A stretch of 59,905 bases of DNA, taken from NCBI GenBank assembly GCA_902500755.1, contig CABVRV010000009.1, forward strand, positions 1 through 59,905, written 5' to 3'. How positions within the stretch are numbered: the stretch's first letter is position 1; each line of letters starts with the position of its first letter. Position numbers and translations under genes: made by a program. The notes below the pieces were generated by a model. It ran no database searches, was not told the origin of the DNA, and saw nothing but the letters and a program-made list of their open reading frames with translations. This document shows positions 50,406 to 59,896 of this stretch, piece after piece. The DNA is from an uncultured Nitrospira sp. (GTDB lineage: Bacteria > Nitrospirota > Nitrospiria > Nitrospirales > Nitrospiraceae).

Positions 50406-50573
50406 ATGGCAGAGATAGACAAGTATTTTGGCCCCCTGCAAACGGCCCAGCTGGAAAGCGCCGATGTGTGCTCCTCCAGCGGGGTAGGGCTTCGTTGCAA
50501 ACCGAAAACCGCTTATGCTACGGTCCAGCTTTCGGACAGTCATCGGATGGTCCCATCGTCTAGCCTGGCCTAG
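50406..50573 (+). pseudogene. Possible 5' remnant of a PilT-like gene
   Basis: A 55-codon frame starts MAEIDKYFGPLQ and continues ESADVCSSSGVGLRCKP, loosely like the N-terminus of PilT ATPases (an A-S-D-x-H-L-x-S-G pattern). It ends inside the tRNA-Glu gene. The resemblance is weak and the frame could be chance. Confidence 0.2.
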
Positions 50574-50626
50574 GACGGAGCCCTCTCAAGGCTTAAACAC
50601 GGGTTCGAATCCCGTTGGGACCACCA
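50549..50626 (+). tRNA. tRNA-Glu, anticodon CTC (integration site)
   Basis: A 78-nt cloverleaf: acceptor GGTCCCA with TGGGACC, discriminator A and encoded CCA. The anticodon stem is GAGCC/GGCTT with loop CTCTCAA, anticodon CTC. The T arm is ACGGG TTCGAAT CCCGT. The 3' 45 bases belong to the left attachment repeat; the insertion left the tRNA intact. Confidence 0.92.
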
Positions 50627-51820
50627 CCCTTTCTCTCGCCGTTCCAAAGAGTTAGCGACCTTCACCCGTTCTGTCAATGCTTCAATCGGACTTCCATAGG
50701 ACAATCCATAGGACAAAAGGGCGTTGTGAAGCAGGGAAACGGCGGCCCGGAGCTGCTGATTCCAGCCATATCCGCCATGCGAATAGGCTGCGGTCATGGA
50801 TTCACCTCCGAGCTGATCCTGTCCCATTCCCCGCAGTCGATGCCCCAGCAATGCCGCCCGCACTTCAAGCGGAACGCCGAGATTCTGAAGCCACGTTGCG
50901 AAGGTATGACGGAGATCATGGAAGTGGAGGTCAACCACCTTCGCTTCCTTTGCCAAACGCTTCCAGAAGATGCTGAACGCGGCCGGAGTCCATCGTCTGA
51001 AGATTCTCCCGTCCACATGAGGGATCGTCCCGTGTAGGGCCGCGTAGGCGGCAGGATTGAGGGGAATTTCGCGGGGTGTCTGCTTCAGTTTGCTTCTTGC
51101 TGGCGGAAGGATCAACCACCACCCGTCATCCCGCTTGCGCATCCAGGTTCGATCGATCTCTAGGATTTTGGCTTCTCGGAGTCCAGTGTTGAGCGCGACC
51201 GTCACAATCCGCCAGAGTTCAGCCGGGTCATATTGATTCGACTGGGTCACCTTCGCCCGGCGTTCCTCTGTCTTAATCTGGATTGCCTTCAGTTCCTCGG
51301 TCGTAGCGACACGCTCGCGAGTCGTGACATCGGGCAGTTCGACTCGTTTAAGCCGGTTCTTATCCAGCTTGTCGAAGTCGACGGCGAGGTTCAGAATCCG
51401 CATCAACACATTCCACTCTCGCCTGATTGTCCAAGGCGCGGCCTTCGCAGCAAGACGAGCGGTGATGTAGGCTAGGCCGTCCTCAGCCGTGAGGGAGTCC
51501 AGCGGACGTTGGGCGAAGCGAGGGAGTAAGTGAGTCTCGATGATAGATTCCGGCCTGGCCAGGTCAAACCGCTTCTTCACATGCATGGTCTGCCAATACA
51601 GGGGCAGAAATTCTCTGAGTGTAGGTGCCACAGGTGGTACAGTTGTCGGACGCGACTCGCCTTGCTGGATTTTGGCCACCATAGCGACTGCCGCTTCCTC
51701 GGCCTGCTCTTTGGTGAGGTTGTAGCCGAGCAAGGGACGGTAGCGAAGGCCCTTCCATCGGAAGTACAGATCGAAGGCTAAGCCCTTCTTCGTCGGTCTC
51801 TTGGTGATTACATACGCCAT
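50570..51820 (-). CDS. int: Tyrosine-recombinase integrase, 3' end antisense to the tRNA
   Basis: This 416-residue phage-type integrase has an Arm/SAM-like N-domain (RWKGLRYRPLLGYNLTKEQ) and a catalytic domain with Arg in NTGLREAKILEID, His-x-x-Arg in LHFHDLRHTFATWLQNLG, the second His in LLGHRLRGMG and a Tyr in the SMTAAYSHGGYG region. The start MAYVITKRPTKKG is chosen over a frame overlapping xis. The last 19 codons are antisense to the tRNA-Glu gene, and the stop depends on chromosomal sequence beyond the repeat. Confidence 0.92.
   Translation of the reverse strand: MAYVITKRPTKKGLAFDLYFRWKGLRYRPLLGYNLTKEQAEEAAVAMVAKIQQGESRPTTVPPVAPTLREFLPLYWQTMHVKKRFDLARPESIIETHLLPRFAQRPLDSLTAEDGLAYITARLAAKAAPWTIRREWNVLMRILNLAVDFDKLDKNRLKRVELPDVTTRERVATTEELKAIQIKTEERRAKVTQSNQYDPAELWRIVTVALNTGLREAKILEIDRTWMRKRDDGWWLILPPARSKLKQTPREIPLNPAAYAALHGTIPHVDGRIFRRWTPAAFSIFWKRLAKEAKVVDLHFHDLRHTFATWLQNLGVPLEVRAALLGHRLRGMGQDQLGGESMTAAYSHGGYGWNQQLRAAVSLLHNALLSYGLSYGSPIEALTERVKVANSLERREKGWWSQRDSNPCLSLERAPS
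50582..50627 (+). repeat. attL: 46-bp direct repeat in tRNA-Glu
   Basis: From CCTCTCAAGG through the T arm and acceptor to CCACCAC. It is identical to 59851-59896. The base before (C versus T) and after (C versus A) differ between the copies, so the repeat is exactly 46 bp. Confidence 0.95.
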
Positions 51821-51827
51821 GTGTCTC

Positions 51828-52139
51828 TCAGCGATAGAGTGGGTTGCGATGGTAGACACCCGCGTTTTGAATGTCCAGAGCGTCACTCGCAGAGATATTA
51901 GGAACACTGATAGGGCCAGTGTTCGAGTGTAAGGCCGACTGACTCGGGGAAACCGCAGGTGCCGCTACGGATTCAAATTCAACACGCCCAGTTTTAAGCC
52001 ACATCTCAAGCTCATCCTGATCGAACAACAGCGCCCGCGAGCCAGGACGCCGATAACGGGGAATATCCTTCCGTTGGTACAGAGAAGACCTCGACATCCG
52101 AAGAAACTGCGCGGCTTCTTGAAGATTTAACGGTCTCAT
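51828..52139 (-). CDS. Excisionase-like helix-turn-helix protein
   Basis: This 103-residue protein starts MRPLNLQEAAQFLRMSRSSLY and continues IPRYRRPGSRALLFDQDELEMW, the HTH_17 excisionase/AlpA form in which the helix reads a site near att. A disordered tail of ~50 residues follows. It precedes int by 7 bp and is probably co-transcribed with it. It likely steers recombination towards excision. Confidence 0.82.
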   Translation of the reverse strand: MRPLNLQEAAQFLRMSRSSLYQRKDIPRYRRPGSRALLFDQDELEMWLKTGRVEFESVAAPAVSPSQSALHSNTGPISVPNISASDALDIQNAGVYHRNPLYR

Positions 52140-53776: not shown

Positions 53777-54328
53777 ATGGGGCAGACGGTCAAACGGACG
53801 ACGACGGTCACGGTGGATCTGGGTGAACTGAAAGCGCCCTGGCAGGCCTGGTGTGAGCTGCAAGGCGTCACGCCGAGCCACGCCCTACGGAACGCCCTTC
53901 GGCAAGCCATGCACCGGAAAGGGATCCAAGCCCCTGCACCTCGGCTGCGCGTGACTCCGAAGCAAGAACGAGCGACTGCCCGCATGGAAGTGCATCTCAC
54001 GCCTTCAGAACTCGCTGCCCTGAAGAAGATGGCCGGTCACGAAGGCTACGTGCCGACGAAATGGCTGGTGGCGATGGTGCGCACCAAGTTGACCGGGCAG
54101 CCGCAGGTCGGACAGCCGGAATTGGAGACCTTGGCCCGGTCGAATCAGCAACTGTTGGCCTTGGGCAGGAACCTGAACCAGATTGCAAAAGTCTTGAATA
54201 CCTCGCCTCAAAACAGAACTGCGTTTCGAGTCGAGGTCATCACCGAACTCTCTTGCGTGATCCAGGCCCATACGAAGAAGGTGTCCGATGTCTTACGTGG
54301 GACCGTGGAGCGTTGGCACATCCAATGA
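53777..54328 (+). CDS. mobC: MobC-type relaxosome accessory protein
   Basis: This 183-residue protein has a basic ribbon-helix-helix-like N-terminal part (VTVDLGELKAPWQAW; PSHALRNALRQAMH). The MobC signature LLALGRNLNQIAKVLNT follows, after MEVHLTPSELAALKKMA. MobC opens DNA at oriT for the relaxase. Its stop overlaps the relaxase ATG by 4 bp. Confidence 0.85.
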   Translation: MGQTVKRTTTVTVDLGELKAPWQAWCELQGVTPSHALRNALRQAMHRKGIQAPAPRLRVTPKQERATARMEVHLTPSELAALKKMAGHEGYVPTKWLVAMVRTKLTGQPQVGQPELETLARSNQQLLALGRNLNQIAKVLNTSPQNRTAFRVEVITELSCVIQAHTKKVSDVLRGTVERWHIQ

Positions 54329-55308
54329 CTCAGCCAGTCAGCCAGATTGACCAGAAGTTGGATGAGTGGGGGAGTCGGCTCTTCAATGTCTCAATGGAGA
54401 CCCTCCCACGACCGAGGTCCAGCAGGAGTGTTCGTCTGAGTTCCGCCAAGCGCGTGAGTACCGGCGGACGGTTCAGCACCTCACAGGCTCGGGCGACCTA
54501 TGTGCGGCGGAAATTACAAGCCATGGTCCGCCGCGCACCACAAGTCGTGGTGAAACTCGTCAGGGCGCCGAAAGGGATGAAGGGGATTTCGAACAACCTC
54601 ACATATATTTCACGCGATGGCCAACTCGAGATCGAGGATCAAGACGGCCAGGTGATTCACGGGAAGGATGCCGTGGCTGATCTGAAAGCCGAATGGCGCG
54701 ACGGCGGCATGCCGATCGCGGCGGACTCCACTATGCGCGACGCCTTTCATCTCGTCCTCTCCATGCCGACACGCACTGATCCGCTGTCGGTCCAACGGGC
54801 GGCGCGTGACTTTGCCAAACGGGAGTTTTCAGGGTTTCAGTACGCGATGGTCCTCCACACGTTCGAGACCGATCCGGATCCGAACCCCTCTCCACATCCA
54901 CATGTGCATCTGACGGTGAAAGCGGCAGGGCTTGATGGGATTCGCTTGAATCCGAGGAAGGCCGATCTGCAACGCTGGCGCGAGGGGTTTGCGGAAGCCT
55001 TACGGGAGCATGGCATTGAGGCCACGACCACGAGCCGAATTCACCGCACTGCCCACGAACGGTGGAAAATCCAACATCTCCGTGATCGCACGATGCACAC
55101 AAAGCAGCTCGATCGCCAGAAACGAGTGACCCACATGCCAAGGAAACAGCGCGAGGTGATGCACCATTACGAGCAGGTCCTGAGGACGCTTGCACGATCT
55201 GATCGAGGAGAGGACCGCCAGCTGGCGGCGGATTTGGTGCGCTATCTGGGAGGACGAACCCTCACTCTGAAGACGGAAAGGGACCGAGGGAACGATCGCG
55301 AACGATGA
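54325..55308 (+). CDS. MobA/VirD2-like relaxase (MOBP type)
   Basis: This 327-residue protein has a candidate catalytic Tyr in ISNNLTYISRDG, a helix in VQRAARDFAKREF, and the metal-binding motif in SPHPHVHLTVKAAG. It nicks oriT and stays on the 5' end for transfer. The C-terminal part is short and basic, with no helicase or primase domain. The start at 54325 follows the 4-bp overlap with mobC; a longer upstream frame is antisense-like and rejected. Confidence 0.9.
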   Translation: MTQPVSQIDQKLDEWGSRLFNVSMETLPRPRSSRSVRLSSAKRVSTGGRFSTSQARATYVRRKLQAMVRRAPQVVVKLVRAPKGMKGISNNLTYISRDGQLEIEDQDGQVIHGKDAVADLKAEWRDGGMPIAADSTMRDAFHLVLSMPTRTDPLSVQRAARDFAKREFSGFQYAMVLHTFETDPDPNPSPHPHVHLTVKAAGLDGIRLNPRKADLQRWREGFAEALREHGIEATTTSRIHRTAHERWKIQHLRDRTMHTKQLDRQKRVTHMPRKQREVMHHYEQVLRTLARSDRGEDRQLAADLVRYLGGRTLTLKTERDRGNDRER

Positions 55309-55404
55309 ATAATCTGCACCTGTCACCTTACCGAAGTAGAGAATGACCCCCAGAGTATCCTAAGAGGCTGCGCAGTTGAGGAATGTATTTTACTAGAAGG
55401 TCAC

Positions 55405-55433
55405 TTGACAATCCTCTACTAGTCCATTATTCT
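55405..55433 (+). promoter_or_regulatory. Near-consensus promoter for the arsenic operon
   Basis: TTGACA (55405-55410), 17-base spacer, TATTCT (55428-55433). The expected first transcribed base is at 55440-55441, which is the arsR ATG itself. The mRNA would be leaderless or nearly so. ArsR would be expected to bind over this promoter. Confidence 0.65.
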
Positions 55434-55439
55434 GGACAT

Positions 55440-55817
55440 ATGGAAATCAATGAAGCAGTCACCGCCTTTGACGCACTTTCACAGGAAACCCGCTTGCGGG
55501 TGTTCCGCCTGCTGGTGGAATACGGACAGGAAGGGACACCAGCCGGAACGCTGAGCGAAACGCTGGGTATCCCGCATAACACCCTGTCTTTCCATTTAGC
55601 GCAGATGAGCCATGCGGGACTTGTTAAATCGCGCCGTGAAAGCCGCTCGATTATCTACACGGCAAATTTCGAGTTCTTCACCGACCTCATCCGCTACATG
55701 GTCAAGGATTGTTGCCGCATGGAGTTTGCCAGCATCCGCGAGGATAAAAAGCGCGGCTGTTCTGTAATTGAAATGCCAAGTTGTTGTCCGCCTAAAGGAA
55801 AGGAGAAAACATCATGA
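55440..55817 (+). CDS. arsR: ArsR arsenite-responsive repressor
   Basis: This 125-residue protein has a winged helix: FDALSQETRLRVFRLLVEYG, LSETLGIPHNTLSFHLAQMSHAGLVKSRRESRSIIY. Cys91-Cys92, then Cys107 and Cys115-Cys116 lie in the C-terminal part. This resembles the AfArsR type, in which C-terminal cysteines bind As(III). The start at 55440 lies right after the promoter; an upstream Met would precede the -35. The stop overlaps arsI by 4 bp. Confidence 0.9.
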   Translation: MEINEAVTAFDALSQETRLRVFRLLVEYGQEGTPAGTLSETLGIPHNTLSFHLAQMSHAGLVKSRRESRSIIYTANFEFFTDLIRYMVKDCCRMEFASIREDKKRGCSVIEMPSCCPPKGKEKTS

Positions 55818-56287
55818 AACGCTTACACGTTCATATCGGTGTGGAAAGTATCGAGCAAGCTATTCCCTTTTACAGTGCCCTGTTTGGCGCACAGCCAGTG
55901 AAGACCAAAGCGGACTATGCGAAATGGTTGCTTGATGACCCGCGCGTGAATTTTGCGGTTTCGACCCTCCCCAGCAAGAAGGGCGTTGACCATCTTGGCA
56001 TTCAGGTTGATGACAATAGCGAGCTGGATGAACTTCGCGGACGGATAAAAAGCGCAGCACTCCCCGCCTTTGATGAAGGCGAAACCGTCTGCTGCTATGC
56101 CAAGTCCGACAAAACATGGGTGCAAGACCCGGCGGGTGTGGCATGGGAAACCTACCGGACGATGGAAGATGCCGAAATTTACGGGAAGAATCCGGTGATG
56201 AGCGAAAGTGCTTGTTGCACCCCGGAAACAAAGGGAACGCCTAATTGCTGCGAGCCTTCGGAAGCAACTGCCGGGTGTTGTGGTTGA
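55814..56287 (+). CDS. arsI: ArsI/CadI-type metal-resistance dioxygenase
   Basis: This 157-residue VOC/glyoxalase-fold protein has the ArsI residues: His5 (MKRLHVHIG), His60 (GVDHLGIQ) and Glu112 (VAWETY) as Fe ligands, and a vicinal Cys93-Cys94 (ETVCCYAKSDK) for substrate. ArsI splits C-As bonds of trivalent organoarsenicals; CadI-type relatives respond to cadmium. The C-terminus has extra Cys pairs (CCTPETKG, NCCEP, GCCG) for metalloid binding. AAAGGAGAAAAC precedes the ATG. Confidence 0.85.
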   Translation: MKRLHVHIGVESIEQAIPFYSALFGAQPVKTKADYAKWLLDDPRVNFAVSTLPSKKGVDHLGIQVDDNSELDELRGRIKSAALPAFDEGETVCCYAKSDKTWVQDPAGVAWETYRTMEDAEIYGKNPVMSESACCTPETKGTPNCCEPSEATAGCCG

Positions 56288-56304
56288 TGAGGGAGATTTA
56301 TTCA

Positions 56305-57387
56305 ATGGATGCTGCTCTTGCGCCAATTATTCCAAAACGACTGAACCTGTTTGAACGCTACCTGACGGTTTGGGTGGGGCTGTGCATGGTGGCCGGAATT
56401 ATCCTCGGGCAATCGGCTCCGGCTGCCGTGCAGCTTCTTAGAAGCATGGAGTTCGGTGAGGGCAGCCACGTCAATTTTCCTATCGCCGTGCTTATCTGGT
56501 TGATGATTATCCCGATGATGATGAAGGTGGATTTTGCCGCCGTGCGTAATGTCGGCAAACGGCCTCGCGGGTTGCTGGTGACACTGTTTGTGAACTGGAT
56601 TGTCAAACCGTTTTCTATGGCCTTCCTTGCGTGGTTGTTCTTCCGCTTTGTGTTTTCCGCGTGGATGACCCAAGCCGATGCCGACCAATATATTGCCGGG
56701 GCGATTATCCTTGCGGCGGCACCCTGTACGGCGATGGTGTTTGTGTGGAGCTATCTCACCGACGGCGATCCGGCTTATACGCTGGTGCAGGTGTCGGTGA
56801 ATGACCTCATCATGCTGGTACTGTTTGCGCCGCTGGTCGTGTTTCTGGTGAGTGGGGCGTCATCGCTGCACGTACCCTATGAAGTGCTGCTGTATTCGGT
56901 GCTGGCCTTTATCGTGATTCCGTTAACCATTGGGGTACTGCTCCGGCAGTGGTTTATCCGCAACCACAGCAAGGAGTGGTTTGAAAATACCCTTCTCCCG
57001 CGCTTTGCCCCTGTCACCATTATTGCGTTGCTGGCTACATTGGTTCTTATCTTTGCGTTTCAGGCCGAGAACATCAGTGGCAAGGCGTTGCATGTGGCGT
57101 TGATTGCCGTGCCGTTGCTCTTGCAGGTGTATTTCAATGCCTCGCTGACCTATGGACTCATGAAATGGCTGAAAGTGCCTTACGCCGTCGCCGCCCCCGG
57201 TGCTCTGATTGGAGCCAGCAACTTCTTTGAACTCGCGGTCGCAACTGCGATCGCGCTTTTCGGTGCGGAATCCGGTGCCACCCTCGTCACTGTGGTCGGA
57301 GTTTTAGTTGAAGTTCCGGTGATGTTGTCAGTATGCGCGGCCTGCAACCGGACACGGGATTGGTTTCCAGCGGAGGCGGCAGCATGA
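56305..57387 (+). CDS. acr3: Arsenite efflux permease Acr3
   Basis: This 360-residue membrane protein has about ten helices, with the family features LNLFERYLTVWVGLCM, the conserved Cys in AAPCTAMVFVWSYL, TLVQVSVNDL and the conserved Glu in GASNFFELAVATAIALFG. Acr3 pumps arsenite out using the proton gradient. GGGAG before the ATG at 56305 supports this start. Its stop overlaps arsC by 4 bp. Confidence 0.93.
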   Translation: MDAALAPIIPKRLNLFERYLTVWVGLCMVAGIILGQSAPAAVQLLRSMEFGEGSHVNFPIAVLIWLMIIPMMMKVDFAAVRNVGKRPRGLLVTLFVNWIVKPFSMAFLAWLFFRFVFSAWMTQADADQYIAGAIILAAAPCTAMVFVWSYLTDGDPAYTLVQVSVNDLIMLVLFAPLVVFLVSGASSLHVPYEVLLYSVLAFIVIPLTIGVLLRQWFIRNHSKEWFENTLLPRFAPVTIIALLATLVLIFAFQAENISGKALHVALIAVPLLLQVYFNASLTYGLMKWLKVPYAVAAPGALIGASNFFELAVATAIALFGAESGATLVTVVGVLVEVPVMLSVCAACNRTRDWFPAEAAA

Positions 57388-57800
57388 AACAGAAGGTTCT
57401 GTTTCTCTGTACAGGTAATTCCTGCCGCAGCCAAATGGCGGAAGGCTGGTTGCGCCACTTAGCCGGAGACCGCTTTGAGGTGGTGAGTGCCGGAACGCAT
57501 CCGGTCGGCATCAACCCTTATGCCGTGAAGGTGATGGAAGAGGCTGGCGTGGATATTTCTAAGCATGTATCAGAGCGGGTTGATTCCTATTTAGATCAAC
57601 CCTTCCACTATGTGATTACCGTCTGTGACCATGCACAGGAAAGCTGCCCGGTTTTTCCCGGCGCAGCTACCAAGCTGCATTGGAGTTTTGAAGACCCAGC
57701 GCACGCGACGGGAAGTTACGAGCAGAAATTAATCATCTTCCGTAAAACCCGCGATGAGATCGCCAGCCGGATTCGCCACTTTCTTGCCGAAGGTTCGTAG
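57384..57800 (+). CDS. arsC: Arsenate reductase, thioredoxin-coupled type
   Basis: This 138-residue LMW-phosphatase-like enzyme has the P-loop LFLCTGNSCRSQMAEGW and the two redox Cys in ITVCDHAQESCPVFPG. It reduces arsenate to arsenite, which Acr3 exports. A YnfA-family gene follows after 110 bp. Confidence 0.93.
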   Translation: MKQKVLFLCTGNSCRSQMAEGWLRHLAGDRFEVVSAGTHPVGINPYAVKVMEEAGVDISKHVSERVDSYLDQPFHYVITVCDHAQESCPVFPGAATKLHWSFEDPAHATGSYEQKLIIFRKTRDEIASRIRHFLAEGS

Positions 57801-57910
57801 CTATCTCTTTACACACGCCCAACCGCACCTTTTCCGCACCTTGACACATATTGGTCTCATGGGTGAGTTTTGCATGGACTCCCTCAGGCACGCCAAAAGG
57901 AATGAAATGA

Positions 57911-58234
57911 ATGGTTACGCTTCTGATCTATATCGCTGCGGCTGTTGCTGAAATTGCCGGGTGTTTTGCCTTTTGGTTTTGGTACCGGGAAGGCAAACCC
58001 ATCCTCTGGCTATTGCCGGGAATGTTTTCCCTCGCGTTGTTCGCATGGTTACTCTCACTGAGTCCAGCAGAGTATGCAGGGCGCGCCTACGCGGTCTATG
58101 GAGGGATTTACATCGTAACCACGCTCGGTTGGCTGTGGGTAGTGGAAGGCATCCGCCCCGACCGCTGGGATATTATCGGAGCAACGGTTTCTCTCATCGG
58201 CGCGGCCATCATTCTCTGGATGCCACGTTCATAA
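57911..58234 (+). CDS. ynfA: YnfA family membrane protein
   Basis: This 107-residue protein has four predicted helices ([70 protein letters not shown]). It matches the UPF0060/YnfA small-multidrug-resistance-like family. It is often found beside arsenic genes and its role there is unknown. AAGGAAT precedes the ATG. Confidence 0.87.
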
Positions 58235-58279
58235 TCTACTCGGAAGTGGCACACCTCCTCACCGTGTTTATATGATGAT

Positions 58280-58480
58280 TCATTCTTGACTCTGCACAGG
58301 TGGGCATTTTACCGAGCCATAAGAACAGAACACACAGCAGTCTCCATCTTTCCGCCGCAGCACCGCTTTGCATTGCGAGCATTCGTAAACCTGCAAACAG
58401 GCATCGGTGGGCATCGTTAGTTCCACAGTGTTCTGACACTGTGGGCACGTCAGAACCGATTGAAGCAGTACGTCTGCCAT
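58280..58480 (-). CDS. GDCCVxC-domain zinc/thiol protein
   Basis: This 66-residue protein has two CxxC pairs (LTCPQCQN, YECSQCKAV) and the signature DGDCCVFCSYG. In relatives one Cys of the signature can be selenocysteine; here all are Cys codons. The family commonly sits beside merT and merP and its role is unknown. The ATG follows AAAGGAG and is 1 bp from the merP stop. Confidence 0.82.
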   Translation of the reverse strand: MADVLLQSVLTCPQCQNTVELTMPTDACLQVYECSQCKAVLRRKDGDCCVFCSYGSVKCPPVQSQE

Positions 58481-58481
58481 A

Positions 58482-58775
58482 TCACTCCTTTCCGATCACC
58501 GATGGGTAACCTGCCTCGGTCGTAGCTTTCGTCATCACTTCCGGCTTAGCCTTGTCAGGATCGAAGGTCACAGTTGCAGTTTTCTTGTCATAATCTATGC
58601 TCACTGTACTCACCCCCGGCACCTTTTCGAGTGCCTTCTTCACGGTGACAGGACAAAGTTCGCACGTCATATTCTTCACGGCAAGCGTAACCGTTTCAGG
58701 AGGCGCGGCTATTGCCACGGCAACCCAACTATTCAAAAAGATGGAAACACACAACAACAGTTTTACTTTGCGCAT
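58482..58775 (-). CDS. merP: Periplasmic mercury-binding protein MerP
   Basis: This 97-residue protein has a signal peptide and one HMA domain with the metal site KNMTCELCPVTVKKALEKV; mature length ~70. KKTATVTFDPDKA follows the family. It hands Hg(II) to MerT. The internal Met at 58775 is preferred because AAAGGAT lies at a proper distance; another Met is 6 bases upstream. Confidence 0.9.
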   Translation of the reverse strand: MRKVKLLLCVSIFLNSWVAVAIAAPPETVTLAVKNMTCELCPVTVKKALEKVPGVSTVSIDYDKKTATVTFDPDKAKPEVMTKATTEAGYPSVIGKE

Positions 58776-58787
58776 CTGCATATCCTT

Positions 58788-59135
58788 TTAAGAAAGCAAT
58801 GGCGCAACCCACGGCACCGCCAGCAGGATGAGCAGCAGCACCGTAACCACCCAAAATATGCCGCGCTGGCGTTTGACTGTACGCGGGTCGGCGCATGGCA
58901 TGCCGGGGACACAAGCTAGAGGGGTTAGATAGACCTTGCGAAAGGATAGTCCCAAGAACAGCAGCGTTAACCCAATGAATACCGGGCGCAACGGTTCCAG
59001 CGCGGTTAAGTTGCTAATCCATGCCCCGCTGATGCCAAGTGCCAGTAGGACAAGTGGCGCGACACAGCATACCGACGCACCCAACGCAGTCAGCACGCCC
59101 GCTATGAGTGTTCCCTTTCCATTTCCTAAATCCAT
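58788..59135 (-). CDS. merT: Mercury transport protein MerT
   Basis: This 115-residue membrane protein has three helices. The vicinal Cys pair is in ASVCCVAPLVLLALG (helix 1) and a second pair in ACVPGMPC (cytoplasmic loop). Normal MerT length is 116. GGAGGAAAAGCT before the ATG fixes the start; longer frames would overlap the mer operator. MerT brings Hg(II) into the cell. No mercuric reductase gene is present in this element. Confidence 0.92.
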   Translation of the reverse strand: MDLGNGKGTLIAGVLTALGASVCCVAPLVLLALGISGAWISNLTALEPLRPVFIGLTLLFLGLSFRKVYLTPLACVPGMPCADPRTVKRQRGIFWVVTVLLLILLAVPWVAPLLS

Positions 59136-59175
59136 AGCTTTTCCTCCAGAACCGCTTTGTTGATTCATCCTAAAC

Positions 59176-59192
59176 CCTGTACTAAGGTACGG
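59176..59192 (+). promoter_or_regulatory. mer-type operator with divergent promoter elements
   Basis: The dyad CCTGTAC-TAAG-GTACGG lies between merT and merR. On the minus strand, TTGCTT and TTAGGA are about 19 bases apart around it, the stretched spacing typical of MerR-activated promoters. The plus-strand sequence GTACGGAAGCAAGG strongly resembles the classical mer operator. Confidence 0.7.
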
Positions 59193-59210
59193 AAGCAAGG
59201 GGTAATTTCA

Positions 59211-59621
59211 ATGGCTCAGGAATTAACGATAGGAAAGGTGGCGAAGCTGGCGGAAGTCAACGTCGAGACGATTCGCTATTACCAGCGGCGGGGACTTCTA
59301 GCGGAGCCGGACAAGCCTTATATGGGATACCGCCGCTATCCAGCGGACATGGTGAAGCACATCCGCTTCATCAAACGGGCGCAGGCTCTTGGGTTTACCT
59401 TAAATGAAGTAGCCCTTCTCATGGAATTGGAGGAAGCCCGCGCCTGTGGCAAGACCCGCGCGCTCGCTCGAGACAAGATAAACGCCATCGACCAGAAACT
59501 GACCGGACTCACAAACATGCGCAAGGCACTGGCCGCCCTTGTTCGACAATGCGACGCGGGAGAGTCTACAAAAGGGTGCCCGATAATTCACGCTCTCGCG
59601 CAAGGCGGGTTTCTCCACTGA
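59211..59621 (+). CDS. merR: Mercury-responsive regulator MerR
   Basis: This 136-residue protein has a winged helix (LTIGKVAKLAEVNVETIRYYQRRGLL), a long dimer helix, and the Hg(II) cysteines: one in EARACGKTRAL and a pair in RQCDAGESTKGC, nine residues apart, as in Tn501 MerR. MerR represses and, with Hg(II), activates the divergent merT operon by untwisting the DNA. The mRNA leader would be short. Confidence 0.92.
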   Translation: MAQELTIGKVAKLAEVNVETIRYYQRRGLLAEPDKPYMGYRRYPADMVKHIRFIKRAQALGFTLNEVALLMELEEARACGKTRALARDKINAIDQKLTGLTNMRKALAALVRQCDAGESTKGCPIIHALAQGGFLH

Positions 59622-59850
59622 CGTACATACCAGATCGCATTCCCATGCCGACCGCGCTTTCGAGCTAGGATAATGACGGACTGCGTGATGATATTGGTCA
59701 GGATGCGGAAATCATTCGGCTTGTTGGGAACGGTAGCGACCTAATCGCTGTCCTATATAGGACACGCATTCTGTAAGTCGTTGTAAATCCATATTGCTAA
59801 TCGGAAGTGTCCGAAGTATCATCTTGTTGATTTTCTTCGCTTTGGTCGGT
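59622..59850. other. Right-end region of the element with a 16-bp palindrome
   Basis: No gene is seen. The perfect palindrome TGTCCTATATAGGACA lies at 59749-59764, and TCGGAAGTGTCCGAAGT (59801-59817) holds a short direct repeat. These could be integrase-arm or excisionase sites beside attR. Confidence 0.45.
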
Positions 59851-59896
59851 CCTCTCAAGGCTTAAACACGGGTTCGAATCCCGTTGGGACCACCAC
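59851..59896 (+). repeat. attR: 46-bp direct repeat
   Basis: It is identical to 50582-50627. It contains the 3' part of tRNA-Glu from the anticodon loop to CCA and lacks the 5' half, so it is not a tRNA gene. It marks the right junction with the chromosome. Confidence 0.95.

Follow-up and report, generated by a model that had tools for sequence, protein, structure and literature searches.

Integrases that read across their own attachment site are known, but it has seldom been possible to tell a meaningful change of the end from a positional accident. In the integration-dependent immunity of mycobacteriophages, attP lies inside the repressor gene, and integration removes a degradation tag, thereby reporting the state of the phage. 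For phage Mx8 (Tojo 1996, Magrini 1999), the summary given in PMC4701971 states that integration replaces 112 residues by 13 and leaves the integrase less active, and the account in PMC6070905 describes the integrated Mx8 integrase as changed in specificity, not inactivated. In the passage on such cases in the Islander work (PMC4383910), the Mx8 and SSV integrases are named as extending across attP. In the present case, related elements are numerous, they use two tRNA targets, and a C-terminal tail has been lost naturally in some of them, which allows a comparative test.

Results

The window, i.e., the whole stretch of 59,905 bp that was analyzed, is one entire contig (C9) of a genome in 203 contigs. 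A 46-bp perfect direct repeat, present at 50582-50627 and 59851-59896, bounds an element of 9,269 bp. The first copy of this att core is the 3' part of a tRNA-Glu(CTC) gene (50549 to 50626, plus strand; ARAGORN), which is the integration target and is complete at this junction; the same copy lies within the coding sequence of a tyrosine integrase gene, int (50570 to 51820, minus strand). The int open reading frame spans 50570-51907 and encodes 416 amino acids from the likely ATG at 51820, including the PF00589 catalytic domain (E value, 2.7e-15) of the tyrosine recombinase (phage integrase) family. The best matches of the protein are in Nitrospira metagenome genomes. Residues R215, H301, R304, H327 and Y346, which we take to be catalytic, occupy invariant columns of the integrase alignment (A4) and all lie upstream of the att core, which starts near residue 399. 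Running antisense across the repeat, the int frame stops inside the tRNA gene after R-A-P-S, giving a C terminus that reads WWSQRDSNPCLSLERAPS. The last codons of this integrated form, Ala-Pro-Ser-stop (50570 to 50581, minus strand), are chromosome derived and antisense to the tRNA-Glu gene.

An AlpA/HTH_17-like excisionase-type gene (51828 to 52139, minus strand; phrog_66) immediately precedes int, with its stop 7 nt from the int ATG and scores above the Pfam cut-off for HTH_17 and just below it for AlpA. Mobilization genes encoding a NikA/MobC-like protein and a MobA/VirD2-like relaxase lie at 53777 to 55308 (plus strand), NikA and MobC being just under their Pfam cut-offs; relaxase and integrase were both present among the 8 element ORFs scanned against Pfam. 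The element also encodes ArsR-like, SBF-family (SBF/ACR3-like), low-molecular-weight phosphatase-family (LMWPc/ArsC-like) and MerR-like genes, and, judging from these family names, we assume that the cargo at 55383-59621 resembles arsenic/mercury-type metal functions.

Beyond the far copy of the repeat, the int frame reads R-TDQSEENQQDDTSDTSD and stops, adding 17 residues of which 7 are acidic and none is basic. This detached tail (17 codons plus TAG; 59797 to 59850, minus strand) is in frame with int, sits 9.3 kb from it at the opposite end of the element and adjoins it solely in a circle or tandem array. Recombination within the repeat would form a circle in which these 17 codons end int. 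A sequence-only reading of this locus had claimed just such an exchange, with an acidic tail of 17 residues replacing three residues in the circle form; the tail is indeed there in frame, and the letters, coordinates and lengths given in that reading were correct. Across the 119,690 start points of the window (both strands, all frames), 61% were open for 17 codons, and 21 (0.018%) combined at least 7 D/E with no K/R over 17 open codons. Another Nitrospira genome (KAN-bin2) carries a near-copy of the element (L007:2051-11324) with 100% integrase identity, the same tail and a similar length, which suggests a recent transfer.

The predicted junction was directly visible in a relative. Contig JAOUPN010000062.1 (15,129 bp; L018/L056) encodes an integrase 80% identical to that of the window, which reads WWSQRDSNPCLSLER-TEKDEENQQDKPLEPSDES and stops, with core and tail joined. 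ARAGORN found no tRNA on this contig, whose two ends share an overlap of 147/146 nt that differs by one single-base indel within an A-run. A circle of about 15 kb would give such an overlap, and a tandem array would fit it as well; this is the one element in which the free form was seen directly. The claim that integration changes the C terminus of the integrase is thus borne out, with R-APS in the integrated form and int joined to the tail on this contig. The same bin (listed completeness, 99%; listed contamination, 6%) includes, on a different contig, a tRNA-Glu that has one core copy and lacks a neighboring integrase of the family; the circular-looking contig and the empty site are likely to be co-resident in one organism. 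The roughly 15-kb, apparently circular element is satellite-like, carries genes for a terminase small subunit, a tape measure protein and primase/helicase-like functions, and shares its integrase type with the window element, which bears a relaxase. In IMG/VR, a pattern scan for free forms gave 0 matches, and a protein scan found a single close relative, which was integrated.

In integrated copies, R-A-P-S was found at 21 of 21 int-bearing tRNA junctions (same-place loci merged), 6 of which have an int frame open for fewer than 200 codons, i.e., cut or broken. Locus L015 is cut by a contig end, and at L096 (G314) int runs into other sequence. This tRNA-Glu site (L096/L097) is an apparent accretion with two tail-bearing sites, one of them with a partial core; its full-length integrase ends SRY, and a separate stretch then reaches the tRNA. 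Both ends lie on the same contig, 9.3 to 16.8 kb apart, in the window, in six other elements and in one odd case. For the integrases of G028, G061 (broken), G073:C82 and G114:C116, we found no matching far end; G073:C82 and G114:C116 lie near contig ends. By eye, the integrase of a distant Pseudomonas phage (L214) stops ahead of a tRNA-like stretch, the ordinary arrangement.

The acidic tail is widely kept. A DNA pattern made of the core and a non-G base, and hence blind to the tail, matched 15 places in 14 of the 80 genus genomes, and an acidic tail followed at all 15. Looser patterns applied to the family (176 genomes) gave 24 AGGH and 3 AGGGD places. Behind 22 of the 24 AGGH cores stood an acidic tail of 17 to 19 residues, the exceptions being G450 (TTTNVTLV, then stop) and G459 (RKQGDV, then stop); the AGGGD places comprised one short form (G227) and two unrelated ones (G429, RDS and stop). 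A core-plus-tail profile found 26 sites in 25 of the 176 genomes, and a tail-only profile found 31 places in 28 of them, all of which follow a tRNA-derived core (partial at the second G314 site and decayed at G066). In total, the long tails, acidic and 17 to 19 residues in length, came to 28 distinct sequences (24 behind tRNA-Glu and 4 behind tRNA-Lys cores), and the distinct short tails to 6 (2 Glu, 4 Lys); the long tail is therefore kept at 28 of 34 distinct family-type sites, in Nitrospira and two related genera. The sequence-only reading had proposed, as a test that could count against it, to look for an acidic circle tail in relatives, and relatives do keep one. Neither G450 nor G459 had an integrase match at an E value of 1e-50, and G429 had only a 44%-identical match, but this control is weak in that 7 of the 28 tail-bearing genomes (G012, G025, G065, G066, G075, G297 and G326) also lacked a match at that threshold. 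Some tails are thus remnants or belong to incomplete bins; G297 and G326 have truncated integrases.

Most of the sequences compared are metagenome bins, and open 17-codon frames are common, both of which would suit an artifact, be it a real junction at another position or a tail that is open by chance. Such an artifact is nevertheless extremely improbable, given the junction visible on one contig with overlapping ends, the conserved tails at 31 places in 28 genomes and the elements with both ends on a single contig.

Sister integrases, about 54 to 60% identical, are inserted in tRNA-Lys. When integrated, they read via the tRNA into host sequence, and their ends, of 1 to 78 residues, have nothing obvious in common. 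Nine far-end cores of this group were found in seven genomes. Three far ends read STDISEINQQDDSSESSDE, STDTPEQNQQDDSAESSDEQ and RADDCEINQYDHSSDVSDE before the stop, i.e., the same tail behind a different core peptide, and a fourth long tail, TDISELNQQDHSTESSDE, was found in G056. Four others read RAPGDK or RAPGNK and stop. Extra core copies in G207 and G437 read RARHAPKNIFKINDL and SLLSSISIAS, respectively, and have unrelated flanks; the G207 copy is the best match to the int-side core, and either far end could belong to the integrase of that genome. In the integrase tree, the Glu branch and the Lys branch each include long-tailed forms. Tree and tail similarity together favor a single origin with two shortenings, although two gains would also fit the tree alone.

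A more distant family inserted in tRNA-Phe gave four free-form reads unlike the acidic tail. Two of them (L207 and L210) are basic and partly alike, both ending IRC(K/R)K, one (L209) has two residues, and one (L206) is long, mildly acidic and unrelated. Most integrated copies of this family (L194-L201, L205-L210) end VPRDRIELSTPAFSGLCS(A/T)N, and L202-L204 read on beyond tRNA-Phe differently from the other copies.

Selection on the tail was analyzed with 27 long tails over 17 codons, leaving out the two short Glu, four short Lys, later-found G056 Lys and decayed G066 forms. On a grid, the codon model fitted best at an omega of 0.4 to 0.5, with a log likelihood of -752.35 versus -760.38 at an omega of 1 (2 delta lnL, 16.05); freely fitted, it reached -751.98. 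Simple pN/pS was 0.45 in the tail frame versus 0.40 in one post-stop frame, a weak comparison that is superseded by a conditional simulation in which the number of changes per column was as observed and the choice of base was free, thus allowing for uneven DNA constraint. In this simulation the ancestor was the commonest base and the tree was built from the same 96 nt. The int frame contained 0 stops versus 9.7 expected (p = 0.0013), and both its BLOSUM amino acid similarity (p = 0.0013) and its identity to the consensus (p = 0.005) were higher than simulated, while none of five control frames (two other tail frames and three of the following DNA) showed a significant excess. An earlier simulation run gave p values of 0.005 for stops, 0.0145 for acidic residues and 0.0085 for net charge; hydrophobic residues were not significantly rare in that run (p = 0.062). 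A chance open frame was rejected on the basis of the conditional simulation and of the rarity of such an acidic composition in the window.

Two lineages with otherwise similar integrases have short tails, EVNDEENQ and ADDDEENQ in one and APGDK or APGNK in the other; the tail is thus not essential. Over codons 9 to 18, DNA identity was 0.70 between the Lys-long and Glu-long forms, and 0.38 to 0.39 between short and long forms, against a shuffled baseline of 0.35, whereas beyond the long-form stop the Lys-short and Glu-short forms still matched the long forms at 0.73 and 0.54. Conservation of this stretch, which is near random in early-stop relatives, thus goes together with its translation. As far as sequence comparison goes, the tail is shown statistically to be under protein-level constraint in the int frame. 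Because nothing but a circle or a tandem array can bring it together with int, the form under selection must be the free or tandem one, and the constraint supports some role of the tail there.

DNA motifs accompany the tail. An arm-like motif, TTTACAACGACTTACA (59772 to 59787, minus strand), and a palindrome, GTCCTATATAGGAC (59750 to 59763), have related counterparts in relatives, and in most relatives for the palindrome, at a near-fixed distance from the core; we infer that TTTACAACGACTTACA is an integrase arm site. The whole stretch could accordingly be conserved as DNA, as integrase arm or IHF-like attP sites, and be read as protein only incidentally. The near-constant spacing of these motifs, the presence of WATCAA in 21 of the 28 long tails and the similar simple pN/pS values in the tail and post-stop frames are compatible with such a reading, but it is quite improbable, because, with column rates fixed, the int frame alone shows the constraint, early-stop forms are near baseline over codons 9 to 18 while the region beyond is still similar, and WATCAA is broken in 7 of the 28. 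DNA constraint as the sole cause was rejected on the int-frame specificity and the early-stop comparison; arm-like sites do follow the tail.

Between core and arm, all six distinct short-tailed sites (L102, L119, L174-L181) contain WATCAANNNNTTR, which we take to be a full IHF-like consensus, while none of the 28 long-tailed sites does, and in both Glu short forms the stop codon lies inside this motif. With short forms in only two groups, this is weak evidence that long tail and full IHF-like site may be mutually exclusive here. That the acidic tail of the free form took over the job of a DNA-bending site, and would thus be a state-specific architectural or partner-binding component of the integration complex, removed on insertion, is a speculative and distinctly unlikely extension.

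Two AlphaFold2 runs with 14-sequence alignments gave mean pLDDT values of 57.6 and 57.9 and a pTM of 0.32, with a pLDDT of about 25 to 31 over the last 40-odd residues; these low-confidence models are uninformative on the tail. Among solved structures, no sequence matched the integrase at an E value of 0.01.

Discussion

We propose, with a probability of roughly two in three, that the tailed free form and the tail-less integrated form of the integrase differ in activity, so that integration edits its own recombinase and the tail tunes the free form. The precedent for such a switch is phage Mx8. An incoming or excised circle would make the tailed integrase, which would recombine attP with the tRNA site; insertion would exchange the tail for Ala-Pro-Ser, and the integrated copy would then make a tail-less integrase from the same upstream region. 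The tail might tune the free form by, e.g., reducing nonspecific binding to DNA or changing how protomers contact each other while attP recombines with attB, and losing the tail might favor a quiet integrated state, by analogy with phage Mx8; the model fixes neither the direction nor the size of the effect.

The selection tests fit both a specific regulatory role and a general need for a soluble, harmless end. The tail could thus be a passive by-product of a core that overlaps the end of int, selected only as a soluble and harmless ending of the free form, with no switch involved. Two lineages dispense with most of the tail, integrated tRNA-Lys copies end in unrelated host sequence of 1 to 78 residues, and the composition of the tail is generic, acidic and polar, all of which would be expected of a by-product. 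On the other hand, the identity of the tail to its consensus, beyond similarity or charge, exceeds simulation, the motif is common to diverged int lineages with different tRNAs, and it is kept at most of the family-type sites. We therefore regard a passive ending as rather unlikely, though deserving real weight.

The tail could also be a degradation tag that makes the free-form integrase short-lived, comparable to the tagged repressor of the mycobacteriophages, in which the addition or removal of a C terminus by integration is a known logic. Known degradation tags have hydrophobic, LAA-type endings, whereas 27 of the 28 long tails end in a polar or acidic residue or proline, and one ends in valine. 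The lack of a hydrophobic last residue in these 27 makes a degradation tag less likely, and we consider it improbable.

According to the comparative test, selection here acts on a protein segment that can be joined to the integrase solely while the element is free (or in tandem). The self-editing of a recombinase by its own reaction is thereby open to direct testing, and the result suggests that annotations made on integrated elements may miss the true C termini of integrases.

An att site inside the integrase gene is an arrangement of a kind already known. In the SSV-type suicidal integrases of archaea, the att site is likewise within the integrase gene, but integration splits it into two parts that are reported as inactive in the section of PMC8371274 concerned; in the present integrase the tail alone comes off and the catalytic domain remains intact. 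We thus rejected an SSV-type suicidal integrase, with R215 to Y346 all remaining upstream of the core. In the streptococcal ICEs in rumA, as in the present elements, the integrase gene receives a different 3' end upon integration, but, as summarized in PMC4701971, they use a serine integrase and a protein-gene target, and that summary does not mention a conserved free-form tail.

Mycobacteriophage integration-dependent immunity also places attP in a coding sequence and edits a C terminus by integration. In that system attP is in the repressor gene, whereas here the core is in int and the tail has no LAA-like ending, and we rejected this kind of immunity on these two grounds.

As far as it is described in the sources cited above, Myxococcus phage Mx8 shares with the window element an attP inside a tyrosine integrase gene and a C terminus that is replaced upon integration. 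The core within int and the exchanged C terminus place the window element with those of the Mx8 kind, the free form being seen directly in one relative and inferred for the window. Where the Mx8 integrase loses 112 residues and gains 13, that of the window loses 17 and gains 3, at a tRNA and on a relaxase-bearing element. A literature search, with subscription journals mostly outside its reach, found no report naming a conserved free-form integrase tail. For Mx8 there are activity data; here the evidence is the conservation seen over many elements and at two tRNA targets, and, as far as searched, a conserved free-form tail common to both targets and a test of its selection as protein are new.
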